Shown here: piece after piece, positions 26,251 through 44,768 of the stretch | Numbering within the stretch: the stretch's first letter is position 1 | Layout: the number at the start of each line of letters is the position of its first letter | Origin: a virus | IMG/VR virus record: IMGVR_UViG_3300042471_000310 | Coordinates: 1-49,511 of that record | Reading direction: 5' to 3' (one strand) | DNA: 49,511 nucleotides | The notes under the pieces: generated by a model | What the model was told of the DNA's origin: nothing | The model's database searches: none | What the model saw: only the letters and a program-made list of their open reading frames with translations | Program-made: the position numbers and the translations under genes

Positions 26251-26414
26251 TGGCTTGCTCCAATTAAGTAACCGAACCAAAGCCCAACGCAAACCCCAAA
26301 TAGTATGAGGGCTATTTCTGTAGCTGTTTTTTCTGAGTGGTAACTACGATATGCAGCTATTTCTTTTTCTAGTCTGGATATTTCCCGTTCTAAACGGTTT
26401 TTATTGCTTTCCAT
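26247..26414 (-). CDS. Small coiled-coil plus TM protein
   Basis: 55 residues read directly: MESNKNRLEREISRLEKEIA, a linker, then one TM segment (TEIALILFGVCVGLWFGYLI). Start overlaps the 3' end of the upstream gene; stop overlaps the next start (ATGA). Together with the coiled-coil proteins on both sides it suggests a small membrane-anchored complex. Confidence 0.6.
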   Translation of the reverse strand: MESNKNRLEREISRLEKEIAAYRSYHSEKTATEIALILFGVCVGLWFGYLIGASQ

Positions 26415-26659
26415 ACTTCGCTTATCTCTTTTTTAAGGCGAGCGTTAGTAGCCAGTGTTTCCATTTCTCTGGCTATTGTTTCAGTTAGCTGGTTCATCAG
26501 CTTAGAGTTCTGGTCTTTAAGACGCTCGGACTCTGCTTTAGCTATCTTGAGGGAGTGTTTTAAGTCAGCTATTACTTCTCTTAGCTGGCTTACAGATGCT
26601 GGTCCTTTGAGAATTTCTTCTCTCCAGGAGTCGGGCGGACTTTCGTTATCGATAGTCAT
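26390..26659 (-). CDS. Coiled-coil hypothetical protein
   Basis: 89 residues from ATG 26659 (MTIDNESPPDSW), chosen because it overlaps the nuclease stop as ATGA and has GAGG upstream; earlier in-frame Mets lie inside the nuclease gene. Residues 20-89 form a long heptad helix (LKIAKAESERLKDQNSKL). No other motif. Confidence 0.6.
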   Translation of the reverse strand: MTIDNESPPDSWREEILKGPASVSQLREVIADLKHSLKIAKAESERLKDQNSKLMNQLTETIAREMETLATNARLKKEISEVWKAIKTV

Positions 26660-27057
26660 ATAGCCTCTATGCATGTCTTGTTGTGTATCCATTTGGATAC
26701 ATCTGCAAACTGTACGGCTTTGTTTATGAAGTCTTGTTTAGGTATGTACTCTGACCAGGTTTTATCAGTGAGGACAACGGCTAACTTTTCACAGCCAATG
26801 ACAACAGCTACGGGCTGGTTGAGGTCGTGTAGTCTATTTAGCCAATGGATCTGTTGTGTGCTGAGACTGGTACGTATTGGGCTGGTGTTTCGTTTGGGAA
26901 ATGCTTTTACGTACTTGTATTCTACGAATAGAGTACTTACAGGTCCGGCGTAAAAAGCGTCAGGTACTCCGCCCGCAAACGTATCATGGATCTTCCACCG
27001 GAAAACTTCCGATGGAAGATCCACATGTACAGCTCGTATGAAGCCGTGTTCGTTCAC
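26656..27057 (-). CDS. PD-(D/E)XK (VRR-NUC-like) nuclease
   Basis: 133 residues from GTG 27057, three bases after the SSB-like stop. The motif GGVPDAFYAGPVSTLFVEYKYVK gives the D...E-x-K core of PD-(D/E)XK enzymes in the VRR-NUC arrangement; conserved STQQIHWLNRL follows. Expected to cut branched or flap DNA in phage replication or recombination, consistent with its place beside SSB and helicase genes. Confidence 0.75.
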   Translation of the reverse strand: MNEHGFIRAVHVDLPSEVFRWKIHDTFAGGVPDAFYAGPVSTLFVEYKYVKAFPKRNTSPIRTSLSTQQIHWLNRLHDLNQPVAVVIGCEKLAVVLTDKTWSEYIPKQDFINKAVQFADVSKWIHNKTCIEAI

Positions 27058-31122: not shown

Positions 31123-33666
31123 TCAGTTGGAATTGACCTTGTCAGTATAGCTAATGTTTGTATTTTGCAACAGTCGTTGGTCGGTCCCATCAAAATAGAT
31201 GTTGATGAGACGTTGACGCTCGAGGTCGTCAATGTTCCAAGTGACTGTTACCCCGCTAATAAGGTTGCTGTCACGGCTAGCATTAGCAGCTCGTTTTCTG
31301 GATGTCTCGATCCCGTTACGGCTCATTTGTTTTGTGAACTCACGTTGGGACAAACGGTTGCTTGACTCAGTTTGTACGTGATACACAGTGCGAAGATGCT
31401 CCATCGGGATGATGTCGTACTTCTCTTTGGCGTTAGCAATCCAGGTTTTTACAAAGCGTTGCGCCGTAGCAACTTCGTTCATGTTCTGAACGTTGGCTGT
31501 GTTGATGTCCAAGATGTCGCTAAAAAACAACAGATTGCCGCGTTTGATAGCCTCCGAGAACTCTTCCATGAGCGACATAGAAACGTGTCGCATATGGTTC
31601 TTGGCCTGGTTGTCAATGCAGGTATGAACCATGCGCTCATTAACTACGAAGCTATGCAAAATAGATCCGAAGCTAAACAGTTCGTCTTCTAGTTTATCGA
31701 GGTTCTTGAGAAGTTCTGGGTGAGCTTCTTCTAACTTAAACTCCTGGCGTGGCGGAATGTTGTACCGACGATCGCCGTTCTCAATTTTTACCGCGTCGTT
31801 GCGGTTAGTAAGAAAGATGAAGTTAGTGAAGTTAGGGACTTCAACTTGGTTAGTGCGCATTGCGCGGATTGTGATTGTATCTTCTGTGATCTGATTCTTA
31901 AGCTTGTCAGCAATCTTCATAGCGCCAAGCGAAGACGAGGCCATGTGGAATTCGTCGACAATCAAAAAGATTGAGTTACGCATGTAGAGATTGAAGTGTT
32001 CTTCAATGCTCTGCAGTGCTCGCATTGGTACGTGCTCAGAACCAAACAAGGGACGAAGTACCTTGCTATAGAACAAACCTTTACCGGTTCCTGGTACGCC
32101 GCCAAGTACCCAGGCTGTCTTGGCTTTCTTGCGTGTCTGGAATATGTAAGCCAGCCAGTTGATAAAACGTTCGAACTCCTGGTCACCGTTGCCAAGAACG
32201 TGATGTATCAAGGTATAGATTAGTGGGCAGTGGTTCGATATCAGTTTTGCTTGGCCAAACTCTAGTTTAAAGCCAAGGTCTTCAGCTCCTAACATGTACT
32301 TAGTTTTACGGTACATGTTTACGAAGTATGGGACATTGTCGAAATCAATGGCTGGACTGTTAGATGTAGGGTCAAACACAACGCGTGCGTCACGGATAAA
32401 GTCTGGTTCCGGACGTCCGTGGCTTAGCATGAAACTTTCAATGCTGGTCTTGCTAGTCGGGATTAACGGGTATTCTTCTGTGAACTGATTTAAGTTCGGG
32501 TCAAATACTCCGTTGTAGTAGACGTCGGTGTAATAGTCACGAAGAACAACCGGGTAAGTAGACTTACCGACTTTCTCGAGATGCTGTTGAAAGATCTCGA
32601 AGATGCTTTTGTAAAATTCCTTGTCGGCTTTTTCAATCTCGAATATTGGTTCGTCCTTAAAGTTGTACATGTACGTCGGACGTTCGATGTTGAAGTAGTA
32701 GCCGCCACTATCGCCGCCATTGATATTGCAGCGGACCCAAGGCATTGCTGAACTGTCAGCAATTGAGATGGACATTTTGTCTGGGTTTAACAGTACTTCG
32801 TGAGCCTGGTGCTCAATAGTCATTGTCTGGTACTTACCAGACTTTTTGCGGATGCCTTTGCCTTCGCGAAGGTCATCTTTAATCTGTTGTCCGATTTGAA
32901 AGACAGTCTCTGGATTGAGACTTGCCATGGCTGCTGCCATGTCAAACGTTGCGTTGTCTCTGTCGACGCGAATAATGCGGTCGTCGTCAGCCACGAATGG
33001 GTTTTTAGTCGAGTCTTCAAACGTCGGTGGCGATATAAAGATTAGTTTGCTGTTATCAGCAACCGACACGTCTAATGGGTGTTTGATTGACTGGCCGTTA
33101 GCGCTTAACTCAAGTTGTGGCTTGAGAAGATCTGAAACGTAATTGATGTTTTGTAGCCAAAGCTTTATGGACTTAGGTGGCATAGCCACTGTAAGCATTA
33201 TAAAGATGTGTAACGAAATACGGTCGCCTTTAAGACCAAGGCTAGCTGATGCCTGCGCGATATAACTGACGTTATGAAGTTCAGGTGGAAGCTCAGCAAT
33301 GATCTGTTCAGAGATCAGTTGTACGTCATTAGCGCTCAGCTTTTTCGAACGTACAATTCGCCGCGGTAATGTGATTGCATCAAAGTCGAGTACAAGTAAA
33401 TTGCTAACGGCAAGCCTGTCGCTTTTTTGTGCGCGGCTTTCGTTTACAAGTTGGCGACGCAATGGGCCTTTCAGCATGCAGTTACCTTTTGCAGCATGCT
33501 GGCGAATCAAATTTTCAAGCTGCACTAAACCAGCTTGATCATTAGGTATTGTGTGCTCGTACGAAGTTACGTCTTTTACATACGGATACGGTCGTGATTC
33601 GCCACTTGTAAAGTAATGTTTGCTAAGTGGAGTGCCGTTTGAGCTCTCCAGAAACGTAACCTTCAT
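31123..33666 (-). CDS. Primase-helicase (AEP-like N-terminus, SF3/DUF5906 helicase)
   Basis: 847 residues, GGGGAG six bases before the ATG. The N-terminal region has LLVLDFD (about 88-94) and a later SLHIFIML patch, consistent with an archaeo-eukaryotic primase-type fold. The C-terminal ATPase shows NWLAYIFQ...WVLGGVPGTGKGLFYSKVL (Walker A about 521-528), FLIVDEFH (Walker B about 566) and FIFLTNRNDA, as in DUF5906/SF3 helicases. It would open and prime the phage replication fork beside the family A polymerase. The primase assignment is less certain than the helicase. Confidence 0.85.
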   Translation of the reverse strand: MKVTFLESSNGTPLSKHYFTSGESRPYPYVKDVTSYEHTIPNDQAGLVQLENLIRQHAAKGNCMLKGPLRRQLVNESRAQKSDRLAVSNLLVLDFDAITLPRRIVRSKKLSANDVQLISEQIIAELPPELHNVSYIAQASASLGLKGDRISLHIFIMLTVAMPPKSIKLWLQNINYVSDLLKPQLELSANGQSIKHPLDVSVADNSKLIFISPPTFEDSTKNPFVADDDRIIRVDRDNATFDMAAAMASLNPETVFQIGQQIKDDLREGKGIRKKSGKYQTMTIEHQAHEVLLNPDKMSISIADSSAMPWVRCNINGGDSGGYYFNIERPTYMYNFKDEPIFEIEKADKEFYKSIFEIFQQHLEKVGKSTYPVVLRDYYTDVYYNGVFDPNLNQFTEEYPLIPTSKTSIESFMLSHGRPEPDFIRDARVVFDPTSNSPAIDFDNVPYFVNMYRKTKYMLGAEDLGFKLEFGQAKLISNHCPLIYTLIHHVLGNGDQEFERFINWLAYIFQTRKKAKTAWVLGGVPGTGKGLFYSKVLRPLFGSEHVPMRALQSIEEHFNLYMRNSIFLIVDEFHMASSSLGAMKIADKLKNQITEDTITIRAMRTNQVEVPNFTNFIFLTNRNDAVKIENGDRRYNIPPRQEFKLEEAHPELLKNLDKLEDELFSFGSILHSFVVNERMVHTCIDNQAKNHMRHVSMSLMEEFSEAIKRGNLLFFSDILDINTANVQNMNEVATAQRFVKTWIANAKEKYDIIPMEHLRTVYHVQTESSNRLSQREFTKQMSRNGIETSRKRAANASRDSNLISGVTVTWNIDDLERQRLINIYFDGTDQRLLQNTNISYTDKVNSN

Positions 33667-33684: not shown

Positions 33685-33885
33685 CTAGCCCTTGTCTTGC
33701 TCCGAAGAGCCGGGGCTTTCGTCTAAAGTTTCTTTCCGGTCAATAATTATTGACGGGTCAGCGACGAAAGCAATGCGAACTTGATTACGATCTATGCGAC
33801 AGACTTTTACTTCAACAAGGACTTTACCGTTGTGTTGAACAACAACGGTTTCGTTTAAACGCCTTGTTAAAACAAGCCTGGACAT
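33685..33885 (-). CDS. csrA: CsrA/RsmA-family RNA-binding regulator
   Basis: 66 residues. LVLTRRLNETVVV aligns with the first strand of CsrA (LILTRRVGETLMI type), VCRIDRNQVRIAF with its central strands, and ADPSIIIDRKE with the conserved end, keeping the key Arg although His-Arg is Asp-Arg here. CsrA dimers bind GGA motifs in mRNA leaders and block or stabilise translation. Encoded between DNA polymerase and primase; its ATG overlaps the polymerase stop as TAATG. A GGA-rich site lies 10 nt upstream of the ATG. It could regulate host or phage mRNAs. Confidence 0.87.
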   Translation of the reverse strand: MSRLVLTRRLNETVVVQHNGKVLVEVKVCRIDRNQVRIAFVADPSIIIDRKETLDESPGSSEQDKG

Positions 33886-35708
33886 TACTTACTGTACATC
33901 CTGTCATAGCCACCTTCAGCGGATAACGGTAGATCCGGGGCCCAGCTGGGTGGGGTGCAAAGATCGTCAATGATTTGAGCCATTGTAGCATCGGGATTTT
34001 CATCTGATGCAACAATTACTACTTCGTCATGTACGGTAAGGGCAACGCATCCGTTGCGTAAGTTCTTGTCTAGCCTCAATAAACTGTCAGTAATTACTAT
34101 TCTTGATAAAGCCTGAATAACGTTTTCAGTTATTCGACCACCATAAGTTGACTCATGGCTAAACCCGCGCGTTTCGTAAGTCATGCCTTGAGGAGTCATT
34201 TGTAAGTTCTCGTATCTCAAAGCCATTCCATTAGGCAAGACAAGAGAACGATCTTGTATTGTTAAGACTCCGTTGCGGTAAGTAACGCCGTAGTTGTTTC
34301 GGTCTAGTGATTGCTTCAAGAGGTTTTCCATTCGCCCCCATAAGAGCGGAATGCAGCTGTAGCTAGACCTGTATGTGTGTACAACGTTTAGAGCATCAGA
34401 CTCTGAGATCTGCATAGCCGGTCCGGCGGCTCCGGATTCCAGAGTAAGTTTGAACTTCTTGTGTCCCATGCCGTAGCCAAGACCTAGAATTGCGGTCTTA
34501 CCTACAAATCGTTCGGTAGGGTGTTGTTGTTTGTTTACCGGCTTGTTGTAAATCTTCGAAGCAAAATTACTGTATATATCCTCACCCTTGCGAAACTGGT
34601 CCAGAAGGTCGTATTGCCCTGCGAGCCACGCAAGCATGCGGGCTTCGATATTGGACAAGTCTGCTACGTAAACGAGCATACCTTCTGGTGCTATAAGACA
34701 TTTGCGTAGCTCACTACCTCGGGGTAAGTTCTGTAGGTTGATTTTTTCTGTGCCACCGAAGCGGCCGGTATGGGCTGCGTAATACTTAAGCGGGACACTA
34801 ATAGTGTCGTCGCTGTGGGCTACGTCTAAAAATCGTTTAGACCGAGTCTCACTGATGCGTGACTTGACTGCTGTTCTAGCATCCCAGAGAGCTTTGTGCT
34901 CTGGGTACTTAGCCATTAGCTGCTTCCAACCTGCGTCGTTTTTACCAAACGCCGGGATCATGTTACCGGTGCTTGGGCTGCGTTTTACTGGCGGCGTAAT
35001 CCCAAGTCTTTCAAGGAGCGCAACGAACTTGACGTTGCTTGAGAGTACATCCTTAGAAACGCCGGAGTTCTTGATTAAATCTTCAGCGCGAGTGAATTCC
35101 TGATCGTGGTACGTGGTCAGTCGTTCACGGTCAATCTTAAGAATCGGCTGACAGAACATCTTGGTTGTGAGATGAATAAGGTCCAACTCAGACTGTGGGT
35201 AATTAGCCACAAGTTTGTTGTAAACAGCGTAGGTCAGATCTACGTCTTGTACACAGTACTTGGAGATAGCCTCTTCAATGTCTGGTGGAAGGTCGTAAAG
35301 TCCCTTGGCTTTAACAAGGTCTTCGCCTTTACGCATAGATTCGTCGTCTGGGAACAAGCGAATACTTGTCTCTTTAAGAGATGCAGATAAGCCAGGAAAC
35401 GCGCCGCGTGCCATTGCTGCGGTGTCGAGATAGTACGCGGGCGTTATGCCGTAATGCCTGGCTAATATGTAGCCGTCGAACAAAGTGTTGTGACAAAGCA
35501 ACTTGACGTTGCTCCAGTCAAATTGACGCAAACAGTCTTCAGCTTCGTCTGCTCCAAACCATTCTGTTGGTTCATCGTTGACTTTAACGCCAACACCCCA
35601 GACCTTAAACATGTCATCTTTGACATATTCCATGGTGGTCATTTTGGTAAGACTGAGCTTTACGTCGTAGTAAGTTTCAAAGTCCAAAGTCACAAGAGTC
35701 TCTGACAC
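33885..35708 (-). CDS. Family A DNA polymerase with 3'-5' exonuclease
   Basis: 607 residues from GTG 35708, which has AAGAAGGA at ideal spacing and begins after the upstream stop; an ATG 18 codons earlier would overlap that gene. Exonuclease motifs: LDFET (8-12), CHNTLFDGY (Exo II) and YCVQDVDLTY (Exo III). Polymerase motif A VADLSNIEARML (about 347-358, the usual Ser-Gln-Ile-Glu replaced by Ser-Asn-Ile-Glu), motif B RFVGKTAILGLGYG (about 400-413), motif C VHDEVV (about 557). Replicative phage polymerase; no 5' nuclease domain. Confidence 0.95.
   Translation of the reverse strand: MSETLVTLDFETYYDVKLSLTKMTTMEYVKDDMFKVWGVGVKVNDEPTEWFGADEAEDCLRQFDWSNVKLLCHNTLFDGYILARHYGITPAYYLDTAAMARGAFPGLSASLKETSIRLFPDDESMRKGEDLVKAKGLYDLPPDIEEAISKYCVQDVDLTYAVYNKLVANYPQSELDLIHLTTKMFCQPILKIDRERLTTYHDQEFTRAEDLIKNSGVSKDVLSSNVKFVALLERLGITPPVKRSPSTGNMIPAFGKNDAGWKQLMAKYPEHKALWDARTAVKSRISETRSKRFLDVAHSDDTISVPLKYYAAHTGRFGGTEKINLQNLPRGSELRKCLIAPEGMLVYVADLSNIEARMLAWLAGQYDLLDQFRKGEDIYSNFASKIYNKPVNKQQHPTERFVGKTAILGLGYGMGHKKFKLTLESGAAGPAMQISESDALNVVHTYRSSYSCIPLLWGRMENLLKQSLDRNNYGVTYRNGVLTIQDRSLVLPNGMALRYENLQMTPQGMTYETRGFSHESTYGGRITENVIQALSRIVITDSLLRLDKNLRNGCVALTVHDEVVIVASDENPDATMAQIIDDLCTPPSWAPDLPLSAEGGYDRMYSK
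33896..33902 (-). promoter_or_regulatory. Candidate CsrA-binding/ribosome site AGGATGT
   Basis: On the minus strand AGGATGT lies 10 bases before the csrA-like ATG, within the last codons of the polymerase gene. It equals the RGGAUGU core of the known CsrA consensus and is the only Shine-Dalgarno-like sequence there, so binding would compete with ribosomes. Confidence 0.4.
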
Positions 35709-35712
35709 GGCG

Positions 35713-35874
35713 TTATCCTTCTTCGTACGCTGTAGCGTCCTGCAGTATTCGGTAAATTTCATCGACCCGTTGTTTTGGGATCTTGAGTTTTGTTTCTATT
35801 TCAGTGGTAGTGTAGCCATTAAGCAACAGATCGCAGACCTGCATAACTTCTACACTTTCAGTGAAGTGACCCAT
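35713..35874 (-). CDS. Small HTH protein
   Basis: 53 residues from ATG 35874 (MGHFTESVEVMQVCDLL), four bases after the upstream stop. LLLNGYTTTEIETKLKIPKQRVDEIYRIL is a clear helix-turn-helix of the sigma-region-4/RNAP-sigma-like type. Could be a transcription regulator of the early cluster. No ribosome site seen, so it probably depends on coupling; its own last codons (GAAGAAGGA) form the ribosome site of the polymerase. Confidence 0.65.
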   Translation of the reverse strand: MGHFTESVEVMQVCDLLLNGYTTTEIETKLKIPKQRVDEIYRILQDATAYEEG

Positions 35875-36145: not shown

Positions 36146-37264
36146 TCAAGAGGGTAAATATACAGTAGTACCGAATGGCGCTTGTGAGTGTCGCGTTGTA
36201 GCTACCCAAAGCGTCGGTGCAATGCAGTTACGTTCGGCTTCGTCGAAGTCGCTGGACTCCAAATCTGTGAGATACACAATTGCCTGGACATCCGGATGGT
36301 GCTCTTTAATGTAAGCAAATGCCGGGGCAAATGCTGTACCACCACGGCCTTTGAATGTACGTTTGTTGTCCGTGATCCGTTGTCCACGGTCAAACACATG
36401 CACGTCCTGAACGTTAGCGTCGCACTGTATAAATACAACCGACTCAGGTCGGACTTGGGCAAGCACTGCGTCTAGTTCGCTAAAGAACTGGATGCCTTGC
36501 TCGTCGGAAATAGATCCGCTGGAGTCAGCGACGATTGCAACTTTACCGCAGGCTTCTTCGTACATTGACGGAAGATATTCGTCTTCCGAAATGTAAGCAC
36601 GATTTGGTTTACGCCAGGTAAAGTCGTCGTTGGTAAGATCGGTAAAGAATGGCCAGAGAATGGTACGCCAGTCGACCTTCGGGTCAAGAATATCGGTCAG
36701 CGCAAGCTCTAAATGGCCTGGCATCTTTCCGCGTGATTTGGCTACCGAGAGTGCTTCACCAACAGCGATTTGCCATTGGGATTCCATCTCGGCAGCAGAA
36801 CCAGACTCTATGCTGCCGCTGTTTGCGTCAAGAACAATACCCCAGGCGCACGGCTTGTGCTTCTTGGGTTCTTGTTGAAGTTTGCTGTAGATGGCTTCTG
36901 CAGACATGTCTTTATAAGCCGGATCTACTAAGCCGCCTTTAGGCAGAATAAAACCCGCGTCCACAAGGTGGTTGTTTATAGCGTAATCGCAAGCAACATT
37001 CCACAAGCTGTGGTCGCGGGCTTGTCTGCGGGTTTGATGGTTAAAGACGCAATGCATAACTTCGTGAGCAATTAACCCACGAAGCTGCATTGGATCTAGT
37101 TTCCGTATGAAATCAGAGTTGTAGAAAAAACTTGTGCCGTCAGTGGCTGCCGTCTTTACGTCCTCTTTCTCAACGGGGCGTAGTCTCAAGGCCAGCGTTC
37201 CGAAAAACGGCTGTTCCATGAGCAGTTGCGATCGCGCCTTAATAAGTGCGCTTTCAGCAGACAT
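36146..37264 (-). CDS. Metallopeptidase-like (DUF2201) plus VWA-domain protein
   Basis: 372 residues, AGGAGG six bases upstream. N-terminal zincin-like domain with HEVMH (67-71) followed by HQTRRQARDHSLWNVACDYAINNHL, diagnostic of DUF2201-type putative metallopeptidases. C-terminal von Willebrand A-like domain with MIDAS motif VADSSGSIS (about 243-251) and a TDLESS element. Paired with a MoxR-type AAA ATPase encoded two genes upstream. Such pairs act like chaperones that remodel protein complexes or insert metals; N4-like phages also carry an AAA/VWA pair. Phage role unknown. Confidence 0.85.
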   Translation of the reverse strand: MSAESALIKARSQLLMEQPFFGTLALRLRPVEKEDVKTAATDGTSFFYNSDFIRKLDPMQLRGLIAHEVMHCVFNHQTRRQARDHSLWNVACDYAINNHLVDAGFILPKGGLVDPAYKDMSAEAIYSKLQQEPKKHKPCAWGIVLDANSGSIESGSAAEMESQWQIAVGEALSVAKSRGKMPGHLELALTDILDPKVDWRTILWPFFTDLTNDDFTWRKPNRAYISEDEYLPSMYEEACGKVAIVADSSGSISDEQGIQFFSELDAVLAQVRPESVVFIQCDANVQDVHVFDRGQRITDNKRTFKGRGGTAFAPAFAYIKEHHPDVQAIVYLTDLESSDFDEAERNCIAPTLWVATTRHSQAPFGTTVYLPS

Positions 37265-37265
37265 G

Positions 37266-37958
37266 TTAGCCTCCTACTAGTTTTGCGGTAAGTACTACTT
37301 CATTTACAAATGAGTCGTCGAATTGAACTTCTTCTCGGATCTGTTTGGCACGCTCGACACGAGTGACTTTGGTGTACATGCGTGTCTTGTGTTCGTGTCC
37401 AACAAACGATTCGCCTGCTGGCCAGGTGGTAAGCAATTGCTTAACCGTCGTGCAAGCGTCCAAAAGATCTTTGATTTTCTTGGAATAGTCATGTTGCTCA
37501 GCATAGTGATCAACAATGTCTTTAGAAAGTTGCTGCAAAGGGCCAGCAAGATCTGCACGCGTCTGCGCACTGAAGTCCTCAAAGCAGAAATCTGCTGTGC
37601 CCCAGGACGAGCCTCGGAAAAGCTTGATCTGGGGTACCATCTCAATCTGAATAGTCTTGTTAGTACCGTCTGGGAAAGACGTAGTACCGAAGTTGGTTTT
37701 AGAAGACAGATTGATAACAGCGTCAGTGGTCTGAGCTACGTTGTTAGGCACTCCGCCAAGCGAAGTGAATGTGTAACGGTTACGTGTTTCGTACATGTCT
37801 TTTAGAACCTTGTACGCTTCGGATCCCATGATGCCGTCGCGGATTCGGTCAGAAAGCCAAGTGGTAGGCTTGGGCATAGGTTTAGCAACCTTGAAAGCTT
37901 CCATAGCGTTACGGTGAATATCGCTACGGATTTCGTTGGTTAATCGTACAGAAGCCAT
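37266..37958 (-). CDS. Conserved protein between AAA ATPase and VWA genes
   Basis: 230 residues, AAGGAG eight bases upstream. Starts RLTNEIRSDIHRNAMEAF; C-terminal helical part includes LLDACTTVKQLLTTWPAGESFVG. The ends weakly resemble the Nmad5 family (predicted nucleotide-modification associated), but I would not assign that function. One base separates it from the VWA gene and ten from the ATPase gene, so it is probably the third subunit or substrate adaptor of that system. Confidence 0.65.
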   Translation of the reverse strand: MASVRLTNEIRSDIHRNAMEAFKVAKPMPKPTTWLSDRIRDGIMGSEAYKVLKDMYETRNRYTFTSLGGVPNNVAQTTDAVINLSSKTNFGTTSFPDGTNKTIQIEMVPQIKLFRGSSWGTADFCFEDFSAQTRADLAGPLQQLSKDIVDHYAEQHDYSKKIKDLLDACTTVKQLLTTWPAGESFVGHEHKTRMYTKVTRVERAKQIREEVQFDDSFVNEVVLTAKLVGG

Positions 37959-37968
37959 GTGGTTCTCC

Positions 37969-38967
37969 TTAGATGACTACTTCTACGTTAGCGGTGGTCC
38001 AGTCCTTGAATGCCTTTTCGTTAATCAAAGTACGTTCTTTAGCCAAGCAGTCGCGGACAAGAACTACTTGGAACTCGCGTGGCAAGCGTCTGTTGTAACG
38101 CATGATCGCGTCGAAGTTCAGCTGGTCTACGCGTGATGCCAGCGCACCGGCAATTGCGTACAGAGCTGATGGGTCGCTCGGAACGTGGCTGGTTGACGGG
38201 TTCTTGATGAGGTCTTCGATGTCAGGCAAATCCTTGTGGATTGCTTTGTGAGCCAAGTACTCGCCAGCCGGGCCGTCGCCGACAAGCGATGCAACGCCGT
38301 AGAACATGTCGTTCATATGCGGCAACTTGCGGCTGACCATCTCCCAGGTACGGGGCGACGGGAACGCGTAGTCGTTGGCGTCCAAGCTGTGAAGCAGACT
38401 CGGACGGTAACGAAGGAACGAGATGATGCTGTCGTCGATCTTGTTACGAAGCGCCCAGGCTACCCAGTCGTCGATGTTTGCCTCGAGCGTGTAGTGCGCG
38501 AAGCGGTTTTTAACAGGCGTTGGCATCTCGTGCACAGCAGCACGATCTTGCGAACGGTTGCCTGCGCCAACGATGATGGTGTTTTCTGGGAGGACGTAAG
38601 TGCCGATCTTGCGATCGAGTGTCAACTGCAGCAACGCGTTCTGCGTAGCTTTAGGTGCATTGGGCAACTCGTCGATGAGCAGCACGACAGTGCCCTGATA
38701 GTTGGTATCTGGGTAATCCTCAGGTACGCCGTAACGAGTTCGGTACGAGCCGTCGGCTTGCTCAACTACTTTGAGACCGCCGCGAACGTCGACGGGATCG
38801 AACAAGTTGGCACGAAGTTCGAAGACCTTGGCGTATAGGTCGTTGGAAAATTGATAAACAATCTGAGATTTACCGAGGCCTGGCGGGCCCCAGATCATGC
38901 TTGGCACGCGGGCCAAGGCGTTGGCTTTTAGTTCGGACTTGAGTTGTGATGGGCGAATAGTGCGCAT
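37969..38967 (-). CDS. MoxR-type AAA+ ATPase
   Basis: 332 residues, AAGGAG seven bases upstream. Walker A GPPGLGKS (27-34), Walker B VVLLIDELPNAP (about 92-103), sensor 1 TIIVGAGNR, and an arginine-finger region TPVKNRFAHYTLE. Best fit is the MoxR/RavA group of AAA+ chaperones, which partner with VWA proteins. First gene of a three-gene operon, behind a structured leader RNA (39000-39089). Confidence 0.92.
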   Translation of the reverse strand: MRTIRPSQLKSELKANALARVPSMIWGPPGLGKSQIVYQFSNDLYAKVFELRANLFDPVDVRGGLKVVEQADGSYRTRYGVPEDYPDTNYQGTVVLLIDELPNAPKATQNALLQLTLDRKIGTYVLPENTIIVGAGNRSQDRAAVHEMPTPVKNRFAHYTLEANIDDWVAWALRNKIDDSIISFLRYRPSLLHSLDANDYAFPSPRTWEMVSRKLPHMNDMFYGVASLVGDGPAGEYLAHKAIHKDLPDIEDLIKNPSTSHVPSDPSALYAIAGALASRVDQLNFDAIMRYNRRLPREFQVVLVRDCLAKERTLINEKAFKDWTTANVEVVI

Positions 38968-41347: not shown

Positions 41348-41992
41348 TTACGCGGCGCGCAGCTGCTTCATAAAGTCAGCAACTTCGTTAGCCTCGGATT
41401 CCTGCTGGAGACGGGCGACGATGTCGTCCATAACCGGCATGGCCTGCGAGAACGAGTTACACACCGTCTCGACATACCAGTTGCCGTCCTCGTCCTTGGC
41501 GCGCTGCTCGAAATGATAGAGCGGAGCGATGTCGGTGAGGTACGCCATCTTGGCGGCGAGCAAAGTGTGCAGGCGGGTGAGCGCCATAAAGTCGCTATCC
41601 ACCAGCTCGGGGATACGCTCGTTAGCAGCGTAGACTCCGACATAGTCACCGACGTCTTGTGAGAAGTCGATGCCGTTGCCGAATTCCTGCTTGTCGTTCG
41701 CTACATACAAGCGGCGAGCGGCCCAGCAGACACCGTTCATGACGGACTGAATGAAGCTGAGCAGACGCTCCGGCTTGAACGGCGGTCCCTCAACCGGGAC
41801 TCCCTGCTCAAGCTCGGCGGTTACTGCAGCCTGACGAGCGCGCTGCAAACGGAAGAATGCAAGAGCAATACGCTCGAGCGGATCGTCCGCTTGCTGAGAC
41901 TCCACGTATTTGGCGATGGAGCCAAGGGTCGTGTTCTTCTCTGACATGTAGCCGATAACGTTGGGGATGAAAGTCTGATCTTTAACGGTCAT
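41348..41992 (-). CDS. Hypothetical early protein
   Basis: 214 residues, overlapping the upstream gene by 11 nt. Almost entirely helical; contains ERIALAFFRLQRARQAA, FGNGIDFSQDVGDYVG and a C-terminal helix VARLQQESEANEVADFMKQLR. No catalytic motif or TM segment. GC-rich codon use compared with neighbours suggests a different history. No family recognised. Confidence 0.65.
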   Translation of the reverse strand: MTVKDQTFIPNVIGYMSEKNTTLGSIAKYVESQQADDPLERIALAFFRLQRARQAAVTAELEQGVPVEGPPFKPERLLSFIQSVMNGVCWAARRLYVANDKQEFGNGIDFSQDVGDYVGVYAANERIPELVDSDFMALTRLHTLLAAKMAYLTDIAPLYHFEQRAKDEDGNWYVETVCNSFSQAMPVMDDIVARLQQESEANEVADFMKQLRAA

Positions 41993-42432: not shown

Positions 42433-42644
42433 CAGAACTCCTCGGTTGGAGTCTCAAGTTCGCGCAGCTTTTCTTCGGCCATCATGCGCATGTGCGCCAT
42501 GGAGTAGATGGCATAGGCTGCTTCGTTGGTTAGACGGAGGGTTTCGTACATGGATTTAGAGTCCTGGTCGGGGACAGACTGGAGAGAGCTTAGGGCTTGT
42601 TTTAGCCCTTCAACGGCTACTACGTAGCATTGTTCGTCGTTCAT
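42432..42644 (-). CDS. Small hypothetical protein
   Basis: 70 residues from ATG 42644 (MNDEQCYVVAVEG), in ATGA overlap with the upstream stop. Helical, with EKLRELETPTEEF at the end. No family recognised. Confidence 0.58.
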   Translation of the reverse strand: MNDEQCYVVAVEGLKQALSSLQSVPDQDSKSMYETLRLTNEAAYAIYSMAHMRMMAEEKLRELETPTEEF

Positions 42645-42970
42645 ATGGATGGGTGTCCTGCTCCCCAACGGTGCCAAGAGGCTACGTCAGCAGCCTCAGA
42701 TTCTGTCTGGTAGTAGTCCGAAATACGGTCGTACGGCTCGTACCACCAGCGGTTAGTTACTTCGTCGAAGTTAAACCCGGCACGTCCGACATACCAGCCT
42801 GCGCCTGAACGCAGTGGGATAGGTGGGCTGACGGCAAGCGTGCCGTGGGGGAACGTGTTAGCAAAATCCTTAGTTACTAACATGAAGAACTGGTCAAGGT
42901 TAGCGACTGGGGCATCGTCGCAGTAGATGACCATTGGGTCGAAGAGATCGATTTGCTGTGGCTCGGACAT
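42641..42970 (-). CDS. Hypothetical early protein
   Basis: 109 residues, AGAGG nine bases upstream. Aromatic-rich (RWWYEPYDRISDYYQTE); begins MSEPQQIDLFDP. First gene downstream of hairpin element 2, so probably a first gene of a transcript. Function unknown. Confidence 0.62.
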   Translation of the reverse strand: MSEPQQIDLFDPMVIYCDDAPVANLDQFFMLVTKDFANTFPHGTLAVSPPIPLRSGAGWYVGRAGFNFDEVTNRWWYEPYDRISDYYQTESEAADVASWHRWGAGHPSI

Positions 42971-43015
42971 GGTTGATACCTCTGGTTGTTACATAAATGA
43001 ATCAATAGAACATCT

Positions 43016-43043
43016 GACCGCGAATCGGGAACCGATGAGCGTT
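43016..43043 (-). promoter_or_regulatory. 28-nt hairpin element, copy 2
   Basis: Plus-strand layout GACCGCGA + ATCGG-GAA-CCGAT + GAGCGTT, 45 nt upstream of the ATG at 42970. The space between contains no other gene. Confidence 0.72.
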
Positions 43044-43095
43044 GTCCTGTATAAGTGAACAGTGGTTAGTGGTCAGTTCTAACCGTTAGTTTGAG

Positions 43096-43104
43096 TTATC
43101 CACA
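43096..43104 (+). promoter_or_regulatory. Perfect DnaA box
   Basis: TTATCCACA, an exact match to the strong DnaA box consensus, four bases before the first of the 9-bp repeats. A single 9-mer can arise by chance; its position makes it more credible. Confidence 0.5.
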
Positions 43105-43107
43105 GAG

Positions 43108-43435
43108 TGTGTGCAGGTAACGGTCTAAATGTGTGCAGCAAACAGGGCAATGTGTGCAGCAAACGAGGGGGTGTGTGCAGGCATTTTTCCTTATAAATCA
43201 ATGTGTGTTCAGTGTGTGCAGGCATTTTTTCAGTTCGCAAGAAAAACAACATGTTGTATTTTTCAAATTGCACCCTGTTTTAAAAACAGTCAAAACCCTG
43301 CACACACTGCACACATTTCGTGTACGCAGGGTATTAAACGCTTGTGAATCAGGCACTTGCATGCGTTTGTTTGCAACAAACTTGCCTGCACACATGCCTG
43401 CACACAAACCGTAATCGCTGCACACACTGCACACA
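43108..43435. repeat. Opposed 9-bp iteron array, candidate replication origin
   Basis: TGTGTGCAG occurs exactly five times on the plus strand (43108, 43130, 43151, 43172, 43213) and six times inverted as CTGCACACA (43298, 43307, 43386, 43398, 43418, 43427); spacing in the left block is about 21-22 bp, or two helical turns, for the first four. Between the blocks is AT-rich DNA with two palindromes: ACAACATGTTGT (43246-43257) and CTGTTTT-A-AAAACAG (43275-43289). No gene lies in 42971-43575. Opposed iterons around an AT-rich core beside a DnaA box fit an origin; a regulatory or partition site is the alternative. Confidence 0.65.
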
Positions 43436-43536
43436 TGCCTGTGTGAGCCGACCATGGACCACGAACCACGGGCAACTGGCCATGAGCACATGACCGTTGT
43501 CCACTGGCACATGACATGTGTTGCGTGCAAACAACA

Positions 43537-43566
43537 ACTGACCACGGTACGTTGACCGTGGTCAGT
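43537..43566. repeat. 12-bp perfect inverted repeat
   Basis: ACTGACCACGGT (43537-43548) / ACCGTGGTCAGT (43555-43566) with a six-base loop, just right of the iteron array and 10 bp from the stop of the gene at 43576. The arms have no T run, so operator, cruciform or processing site rather than terminator. Confidence 0.6.
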
Positions 43567-43575
43567 GGCTAGTTG

Positions 43576-43737
43576 TTAGTCGTTGGAGAGCAGTGATACG
43601 AGGGTGCCGATAATGGCTAAGCCGGTAGCGATGATGAGTGAGTGGCTAACCGGGGGCTCAGTGAAGAACGAGCCGAGGAAGGTGATGTTTGCGAGGATGC
43701 TGAAGGCCAGTGATGTCTTGCCGCTGGTGAGGGTCAT
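43576..43737 (-). CDS. Small two-TM membrane protein
   Basis: 53 residues, AAGGA eight bases upstream. Two hydrophobic segments (LAFSILANITFLGSFF and SLIIATGLAIIGTLVSLL) joined by a short loop. Holin-like size, but it lies in the early cluster, so an early membrane effect is equally possible. Confidence 0.65.
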   Translation of the reverse strand: MTLTSGKTSLAFSILANITFLGSFFTEPPVSHSLIIATGLAIIGTLVSLLSND

Positions 43738-43790
43738 TGGATAGTTCCTTGTGGTTAGAGATGGGAGGTTGGAAGTCCCTCCCGATTGGA

Positions 43791-43958
43791 TTAGCTGAAG
43801 AGGTTGAGTACGCCGAGGACGAATAGAGCTGCCATGTCAGGCTTCTCTTTAGCGTAGGTGATGACAGACTTGGATGCTTCTTTTGCTTTCTCAGCAGCGA
43901 GATACATCTGGTCCGGTTGTTCGTTGATGTTGTTGGTTGTATTGGCTTGGTTGTCCAT
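43791..43958 (-). CDS. Small hypothetical protein with hydrophobic end
   Basis: 55 residues, AGGAG about ten bases upstream. Polar Asn/Gln-rich start (MDNQANTTNN), a charged helix, and a hydrophobic C-terminus (MAALFVLGVLNLF) that may anchor it. Nearest gene downstream of hairpin element 3, hence probably the first leftward early gene. Confidence 0.62.
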   Translation of the reverse strand: MDNQANTTNNINEQPDQMYLAAEKAKEASKSVITYAKEKPDMAALFVLGVLNLFS

Positions 43959-44001
43959 GAGTAATTACTCCTAGTTAATTGACAGATACATAAGATCTAC
44001 T

Positions 44002-44029
44002 GACCGCGAGACACGAAGTGTCGAGCGTT
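44002..44029 (-). promoter_or_regulatory. 28-nt hairpin element, copy 3
   Basis: Plus-strand layout GACCGCGA + GACAC-GAA-GTGTC + GAGCGTT, 43 nt upstream of the ATG at 43958. A second small hairpin AGCGT-TG-ACGCT overlaps its right flank, unlike copies 1 and 2. Confidence 0.72.
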
Positions 44030-44167
44030 GACGCTGGGGGGTTACTGGGCGACAAGGTTCCACGATTCTGGTTAAAAACAAGGTTCCAATGGCTAAATTC
44101 CGGGAAAGGGGTTGGTGCTGGAGGCGAGGGGGGAGACTATGAGTGAGCAAAATAGATAGAAAAACGC

Positions 44168-44236
44168 ATACCCCCTTCTATAAAAATTTTTTCTGCAAAA
44201 TTTTTCTATAGGAATTTTTTGCGGAATCAAGGGTAT
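44168..44236. promoter_or_regulatory. AT-rich divergent control region
   Basis: Two 17-bp direct repeats differing at two positions, TTCTATAAAAATTTTTT (44176-44192) and TTCTATAGGAATTTTTT (44204-44220), 28 bp apart, enclosed by ATACCC (44168-44173) and GGGTAT (44231-44236). They lie between leftward early genes and rightward packaging genes; promoters or operators are likely but I cannot place a -35/-10 pair. Confidence 0.5.
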
Positions 44237-44285
44237 ACTCCGGCAACTTCATCCGGCGCAGGAGATCGGCAGTCGGTCTTCCGGT

Positions 44286-44768
44286 GTGGTTGTACTAGTG
44301 CCAGACACTAAGACATGCGCTCGCTGCCAGACGGACCTGCCCATAGCGAGCTTCGAGATGATGAAAGGCGGCTTCAGGACAATATGCCGCCCCTGTAACC
44401 AGTCAGTCCGCCGTCAATCACGGTCCACGGGCTACGAACCGTACTTAACGAATCTCGTATCTACGAGCAAAAGTAAGAGCCGTAGCCGTGGGTTCACGGA
44501 CTACGAGGTTACGGCCGAGTACCTCATTGATCTCTGGCAACGGCAAGGTGGCCGTTGTGCGATATCAGGGGTAGTTCTTACCCATCACAATGATGGGTCA
44601 GGTGCTAAGGACTTCAACGCCAGCATCGATCGGATCGACAGCCAGCAAGGGTATATACCTGGGAACGTGCAGCTGGTTGCTCTACGGGTTAATCTCTTAA
44701 AACAGAGCTTAAGTACAGATATGCTGTACTGGTGGGTGAAGACTATTTACCAGTACTCTTGTGATTAG
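44286..44768 (+). CDS. HNH endonuclease with zinc ribbon
   Basis: 160 residues from GTG 44286; GTG 44298 is an alternative. An N-terminal zinc ribbon CARC...CRPC (11-14, 34-37) is followed by an HNH-type nuclease: GGRCAISG at about 88-95 and NASIDRIDSQQGYIPGNVQLV at about 112-132, the pattern of phage HNH enzymes with treble-clef folds. HNH enzymes next to terminase genes can assist DNA packaging; it could also be a homing-type enzyme. First rightward gene after the control region. Confidence 0.85.
   Translation: MVVLVPDTKTCARCQTDLPIASFEMMKGGFRTICRPCNQSVRRQSRSTGYEPYLTNLVSTSKSKSRSRGFTDYEVTAEYLIDLWQRQGGRCAISGVVLTHHNDGSGAKDFNASIDRIDSQQGYIPGNVQLVALRVNLLKQSLSTDMLYWWVKTIYQYSCD

Follow-up and report, generated by a model that had tools for sequence, protein, structure and literature searches.

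What is the function of a cluster of short, opposed repeats that occupies a gene-free gap in a viral genome? The stretch analysed here (the window) is the entire IMG/VR virus record IMGVR_UViG_3300042471_000310, 49,511 bases long and without end repeats, and a reading of its sequence alone had proposed that the cluster is a phage replication origin and that the primase-helicase may be the initiator that assembles on it. Both proposals are well supported by comparison with related viruses, from which we judge that the array is probably the replication origin of the window phage and of the surrounding family, with its blocks bound by the phage primase-helicase.

Eleven exact copies of TGTGTGCAG are present in the window, five on the plus strand (43108, 43130, 43151, 43172 and 43213) followed by six on the minus strand (43298, 43307, 43386, 43398, 43418 and 43427), all within 43108-43435 and none elsewhere in the record. 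The five-plus-six description given in the sequence-only reading holds for exact copies but not for the total, as a one-mismatch twelfth site, TGTGTTCAG (plus strand, 43204), abuts the last plus-strand copy, completes the inner pair and makes the array six plus six. The array is not a chance occurrence: the commonest 9-mer in 43080-43460 occurs 11 times versus at most three times among 1000 dinucleotide shuffles of the region, and when 50 shuffled windows were scanned in 400-bp stretches, no 9-mer exceeded three copies. The parts of the array are as follows.

43096-43104, plus strand: DnaA box TTATCCACA, the sole perfect box in the record
43108-43221, plus strand: left iteron block, five TGTGTGCAG and one TGTGTTCAG, inner tandem pair 43204/43213, with a counterpart in more than 20 related contigs
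43222-43297, no strand: AT-rich core, candidate unwinding element, with two palindromes
43298-43435, minus strand: right iteron block, six TGTGTGCAG, inner tandem pair 43298/43307
43347-43359, plus strand: integration host factor (IHF)-type site AATCAGGCACTTG, between the inner pair and the outer block, an exact match to WATCARNNNNTTR

The core is 68% AT, compared with an AT fraction of 0.49 in its flanks, and its palindromes are ACAACATGTTGT (43246-43257) and CTGTTTT-A-AAAACAG (43275-43289). No credible gene lies over the array, in agreement with what had been claimed, and the open reading frames (ORFs) present merely read through the repeats. The array adjoins the replication cluster, also as claimed, in a non-coding gap of a leftward gene set, with minus-strand ORFs at 42641-42970 and 43576-43737 on either side; gene direction changes elsewhere, at about 43.96-44.29 kb. 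GC skew, suggested earlier as a check, does not turn at the array in the window and is uninformative. Loose quasi-repeats (ACCGTGG / CCACGG / GTGGTCA) lie on both sides of the array, at 43442-43575 and 43050-43085, and such flanking repeats are also found in many relatives (e.g., contigs L106, L088 and L091); one pair (43537-43566) makes a stem of 12 pairs, after which the minus strand runs into a T-rich stretch. The 2.5 kb surrounding the array has no DNA similarity to cultured phages, bar one exact 22-base match (43183-43204, around TTTTTCCTTATAAATCAA; E = 0.4) to Warwickvirus coliphage intergenic DNA, which is too short to mean much; the matched intergenic region is AT-rich too and contains no array of this kind.

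A scan with the window primase-helicase yielded 70 related viral loci, and most contigs that reach the corresponding region, more than 20 in number, carry an array of the same design, in which outer sites lead to an inner tandem pair spaced by about 9 bp, then to an AT-rich core and, beyond it, to the same elements in mirror image. The iteron letters differ by lineage (TGTGTGCAG, TGTGTGTCG, TGTGTACCA, TGTGTGCCA, TGTGTGTCA, TGTGTTCCA, TGTGTACAC, GGTGTGACA, CTGTGACA, TTGTGCCA and TGTGCGCG, and also TGTGACA), while the copies within one genome change in concert, which points to recognition by one sequence-specific protein. In a set of 22 arrays that includes near-identical ones, sites with no more than one mismatch number 244, of which 223 are oriented toward the core, and six is the commonest number of sites on each side (left in 13 arrays, right in eight). 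The spacing between inner sites is 83-99 bp, and the AT content of the core is above that of the flanks in all 23 arrays compared. The AT-rich core noted from the sequence stands in the window, but its two palindromes are not conserved in relatives, and core hairpins were rejected as a shared feature (mean z -1.35, inconsistent). Core lengths are bimodal, at 83-87 bp and mostly 94-99 bp; helical phasing of this length was rejected, as periods of 11 or 12 bp fit at least as well as 10.5 bp. A pattern scan of bacterial genomes found no relatives in bacterial hosts or prophages.

The same inner-pair, AT-core, inner-pair centre is found in the cultured Pseudomonas phage KPP25 (AB910393.1), which has two arrays of TGT[TC]ACGA sites, including TGTTACGA, one within the early region and the other among late genes.

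KPP25 record 26394-26825 and about 58257-58542 (L114 11395-11826 and 43258-43543): the two KPP25 arrays

This pair suggests, from its sequence, two origins in one genome. The GC skew of KPP25 was rejected as support for an origin: its cumulative curve peaks close to the array, at a place where gene direction also changes.

In addition to the iterons, the arrays contain IHF-type sites that the sequence-only reading did not mention. Between the inner pair and the outer block, the IHF consensus WATCARNNNNTTR has 19 exact matches in 21 arrays, 25-fold above the shuffle expectation (mean 0.77, maximum 3), and their positions are mirrored about the centre: most lie either at -83 to -98 (minus strand) or at +63 to +91 (plus strand). 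The window has an exact match on the right-hand side alone. These matches suggest binding by IHF, although another protein is possible because IHF would tolerate more variation at the inner letters (often ..AC) than is observed. The DnaA box had been correctly placed beside the array, but it is not a constant part of it: a perfect box occurs in the window clade, in one other lineage (L102) and in KPP25, and is absent in most relatives. Host DnaA would thus be accessory at most, and DnaA boxes are not a conserved part of this origin as they would be in one dependent on host DnaA.

The protein proposed to recognise the iterons, and the polymerase presumed to follow it, are encoded to the left of the array.

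31123-33666, minus strand: primase-helicase, 847 aa, proposed initiator, with an archaeo-eukaryotic primase (AEP)-type primase and a superfamily 3 (SF3)/D5-type helicase (DUF5906)
33885-35762, minus strand: family A DNA polymerase (PolA), presumed replicase extending from the origin

A model of the primase-helicase was built from a 30-sequence alignment (pLDDT 81, pTM 0.45), the pTM value leaving its domain arrangement unsure. Foldseek matched this model to the helicase region (CTR) of NrS-1, to PriRep1 of the Staphylococcus aureus pathogenicity island SaPI5 with double-stranded DNA (7pds/7ola, E down to 2e-9), to poxvirus D5/E5 and to the African swine fever virus (ASFV) PrimPol. NrS-1 and SaPI5 PriRep1 were the best of these, and the whole-length matches are AEP primase-helicases (D5/E5, AsfvPrimPol) rather than TOPRIM-type proteins. 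The last 120 residues have the element order of a winged helix, recognisable in the KPP25 protein as well, and a probable C-terminal winged helix lies at about residues 729-810.

In distant phages with a related helicase, the commonest 8-mer within 1.2 kb downstream (3') of the related gene was counted and compared with shuffles of the same sequence, whose maxima were three to five. In six of the 11 phages the count exceeds that of the phage's own shuffles, marking an array 3' of the gene: NrS-1 (11 copies), Clavibacter 33 (eight), Mcat3 (seven), Stenotrophomonas S1 (seven, ----+++), Mcat9 (five, --+++) and JWX (four). The array lies 0.7 kb 3' of the gene in Clavibacter 33 and directly 3' of it in the other five; the known case, satellite P4 alpha, served as positive control with five copies, and the 5' flanks of related genes had at most three. 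Judged by sequence comparison, this association of gene and array is the strongest link between the arrays and the protein. The arrays are unannotated at L118 17062-17377 (NrS-1), L128 5220-5501 (Mcat3), L129 2489-2733 (Stenotrophomonas S1), L119 26661-26860 (Mcat9) and L125 5659-6052 (Clavibacter 33), and those of NrS-1 and S1 overlap an annotated small ORF that is perhaps no real gene. KT1 has no repeat cluster anywhere.

Several observations weigh against an origin bound by the primase-helicase. The array lies 9.4 kb from the primase-helicase gene in the window, and is set apart from it in the window's family as well, a distance not seen in SaPIs and other phage-inducible chromosomal islands (PICIs), and five of the 11 distant phages (Lodos, Vibrio 1.111, KpV52, YuA and phiA008) have no array by the related gene. 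The winged-helix call comes from predicted secondary structure alone, a profile search found no solved relative of the C-terminal region, and co-variation of the winged-helix region with the iteron letters was not above that of other regions. In KPP25 the outer sites are of mixed orientation and the arrays have no IHF-type site.

In the mechanism that we propose, the identity of the binding protein, the number of hexamers, the bending and the bidirectional replication are inferred. The primase-helicase would bind each six-iteron block through its C-terminal winged helix, and one hexamer would be assembled per block, so that two hexamers come to stand face to face. IHF or a similar protein would bend the DNA between the outer sites and the inner pair, bringing six sites to one ring. 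Once the two rings had melted the AT-rich core, they would separate and prime the two leading strands for PolA. Precedent is available in two reports, in which SaPI Rep binds iterons through its C-terminal domain, apparently as two hexamers (PMC7581432), and P4 alpha binds origin repeats through a winged helix (cited in PMC4234260); the former makes the six-plus-six count attractive, not proven. More tentatively, and less probably than not, these arrays may form a distinct class of phage origin, a six-plus-six mirror array in which each IHF-bent half templates one primase-helicase hexamer, two opposed rings surround one AT-rich core, and the GTG of each site lies on the strand priming outward leading synthesis. 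GTG is the primase recognition motif of pRN1 ORF904 and NrSPol (PMC8718748), and in each block of the window family it falls on the strand from which priming would run outward; we keep this as a side idea because the TGTTACGA sites of KPP25 have no GTG.

Comparison with known origins places the array closest to those of satellites. Iteron plasmid origins (RepA/TrfA type) place several copies of the initiator site next to an AT-rich region and often include DnaA boxes and IHF sites as well; their iterons are direct repeats, confined to one side of the unwinding element and bound by a Rep winged-helix protein. The window array shares the repeated sites beside an AT-rich region but has them mirrored on both sides of the core, and no Rep-type protein was recognised among the proteins scanned. 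The opposed two-block layout is unlike one-orientation tandem iterons, as had been stressed from the sequence, but it is not unprecedented: PICI origins always have two iteron sets around an AT-rich region, a layout otherwise absent from known bacterial replicons according to its describers (PMC6092414), and the repeats of P4 are likewise opposed. The window array likewise has two iteron sets flanking an AT-rich region, and its modelled initiator helicase appears to be of the same structural class as Rep and PriRep (in SaPI5 with a fused primase). The PICI origin lies immediately 3' of rep, whereas the window array does not adjoin its gene; that placement is found in NrS-1, Mcat3, Mcat9, S1 and JWX. 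The window also belongs to a tailed phage with its own portal, terminase and polymerase genes and not to a satellite, and neither IHF-type sites nor a six-plus-six count was found reported for PICI origins in the portions of the literature seen.

P4 ori1/crr resembles the array in its opposed type 1 repeats TGTTCACC, which are similar to TGT[GTA]nCA and include a 9-bp tandem pair, and in its initiator alpha, whose primase is fused to a helicase and which ends in a winged helix (PMC4234260); the window protein has the same fusion and a probable winged helix. P4 differs in that its primase is TOPRIM-type, and that its repeats are fewer, have no six-plus-six mirror and form two separated elements (ori and crr) that are both required. 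The NrS-1 primase-polymerase (DUF5906/PF19263) is the closest solved structure of the helicase part, and an 11-copy array lies 3' of its gene, but with mixed orientations (---+-+++--+); no description of that array as an origin was found in the literature examined. We conclude that this is probably an origin of the PICI/P4 type that would work like PICI and P4 origins; we do not class it as a PICI origin, since it neither adjoins the initiator gene nor belongs to a satellite, or as a P4-type origin, since its primase is AEP and not TOPRIM. The layout is known from satellites; what appears new is its spread across tailed phages, the six-plus-six count and the IHF-type sites, and the subscription literature may hold an earlier description.

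Among other explanations, the one that survives best, although we regard it as unlikely, is that the array is an origin whose iterons are recognised by another protein, a small phage initiator or host DnaA, with the primase-helicase recruited later. The distance of the array from the primase-helicase gene, the unremarkable co-variation and the DnaA box adjoining the array in the window clade are consistent with this, as is a 214-aa protein without a Pfam match (41348-41992, minus strand), which almost every relative encodes at 1.1-1.8 kb from the array, with matches in 55 loci down to about 25% identity. However, the confident model of this protein (pLDDT 89) is a helical fold that matches nothing in the PDB, KPP25 has arrays but yielded no homologue, the DnaA box is absent from most relatives, and arrays stand beside the primase-helicase gene in distant phages. 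The 214-aa protein was accordingly rejected as a DNA-binding initiator, for want of a supporting fold; it may be an origin-linked replication factor. A more improbable alternative is an operator array, on which a phage repressor or activator would control early transcription. Repeated binding sites are frequent in phage control regions and the array lies in a long non-coding gap near a change of gene direction, but 42900-44320 has no sigma-70-type promoter match, the mirrored blocks, the AT-rich core of fairly constant length and the IHF-type sites exceed regulatory needs, one KPP25 array is among late genes, and arrays in distant phages follow the primase gene on its 3' side. A packaging (pac) or other DNA-processing site for terminase is very improbable, for although the small terminase gene (44995) is 1.6 kb off and terS closely follows the array in NrS-1 and Stenotrophomonas S1, the second KPP25 array is about 35 kb from the terminase genes, the same kind of repeats are found in the annotated origin and crr of P4, and the JWX repeats adjoin the primase, the stretch examined there carrying no annotated terminase gene.

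The record also encodes a P22-type portal, a large terminase and a second helicase. Within the replication cluster (36146-38967), an Nmad5 nucleotide-modification-associated protein (37266-37958, minus strand) lies between a MoxR-type AAA ATPase (37969-38967, minus strand) and a VWA/DUF2201 metallopeptidase-like protein (36146-37264, minus strand).

Finally, sequence comparison reveals a family of aquatic phages in which facing six-repeat blocks enclose an AT-rich stretch. A probable two-sided iteron origin across a tailed-phage family, in addition to arrays by related primase-helicases elsewhere, suggests that satellites and phages share a mode of initiation. The mirror symmetry offers a direct test of how a self-loading helicase comes to sit as two rings facing each other, the iteron letters, which differ between lineages, supply natural swaps with which initiator specificity may be mapped, and the arrays permit origin prediction in uncultured viral contigs.
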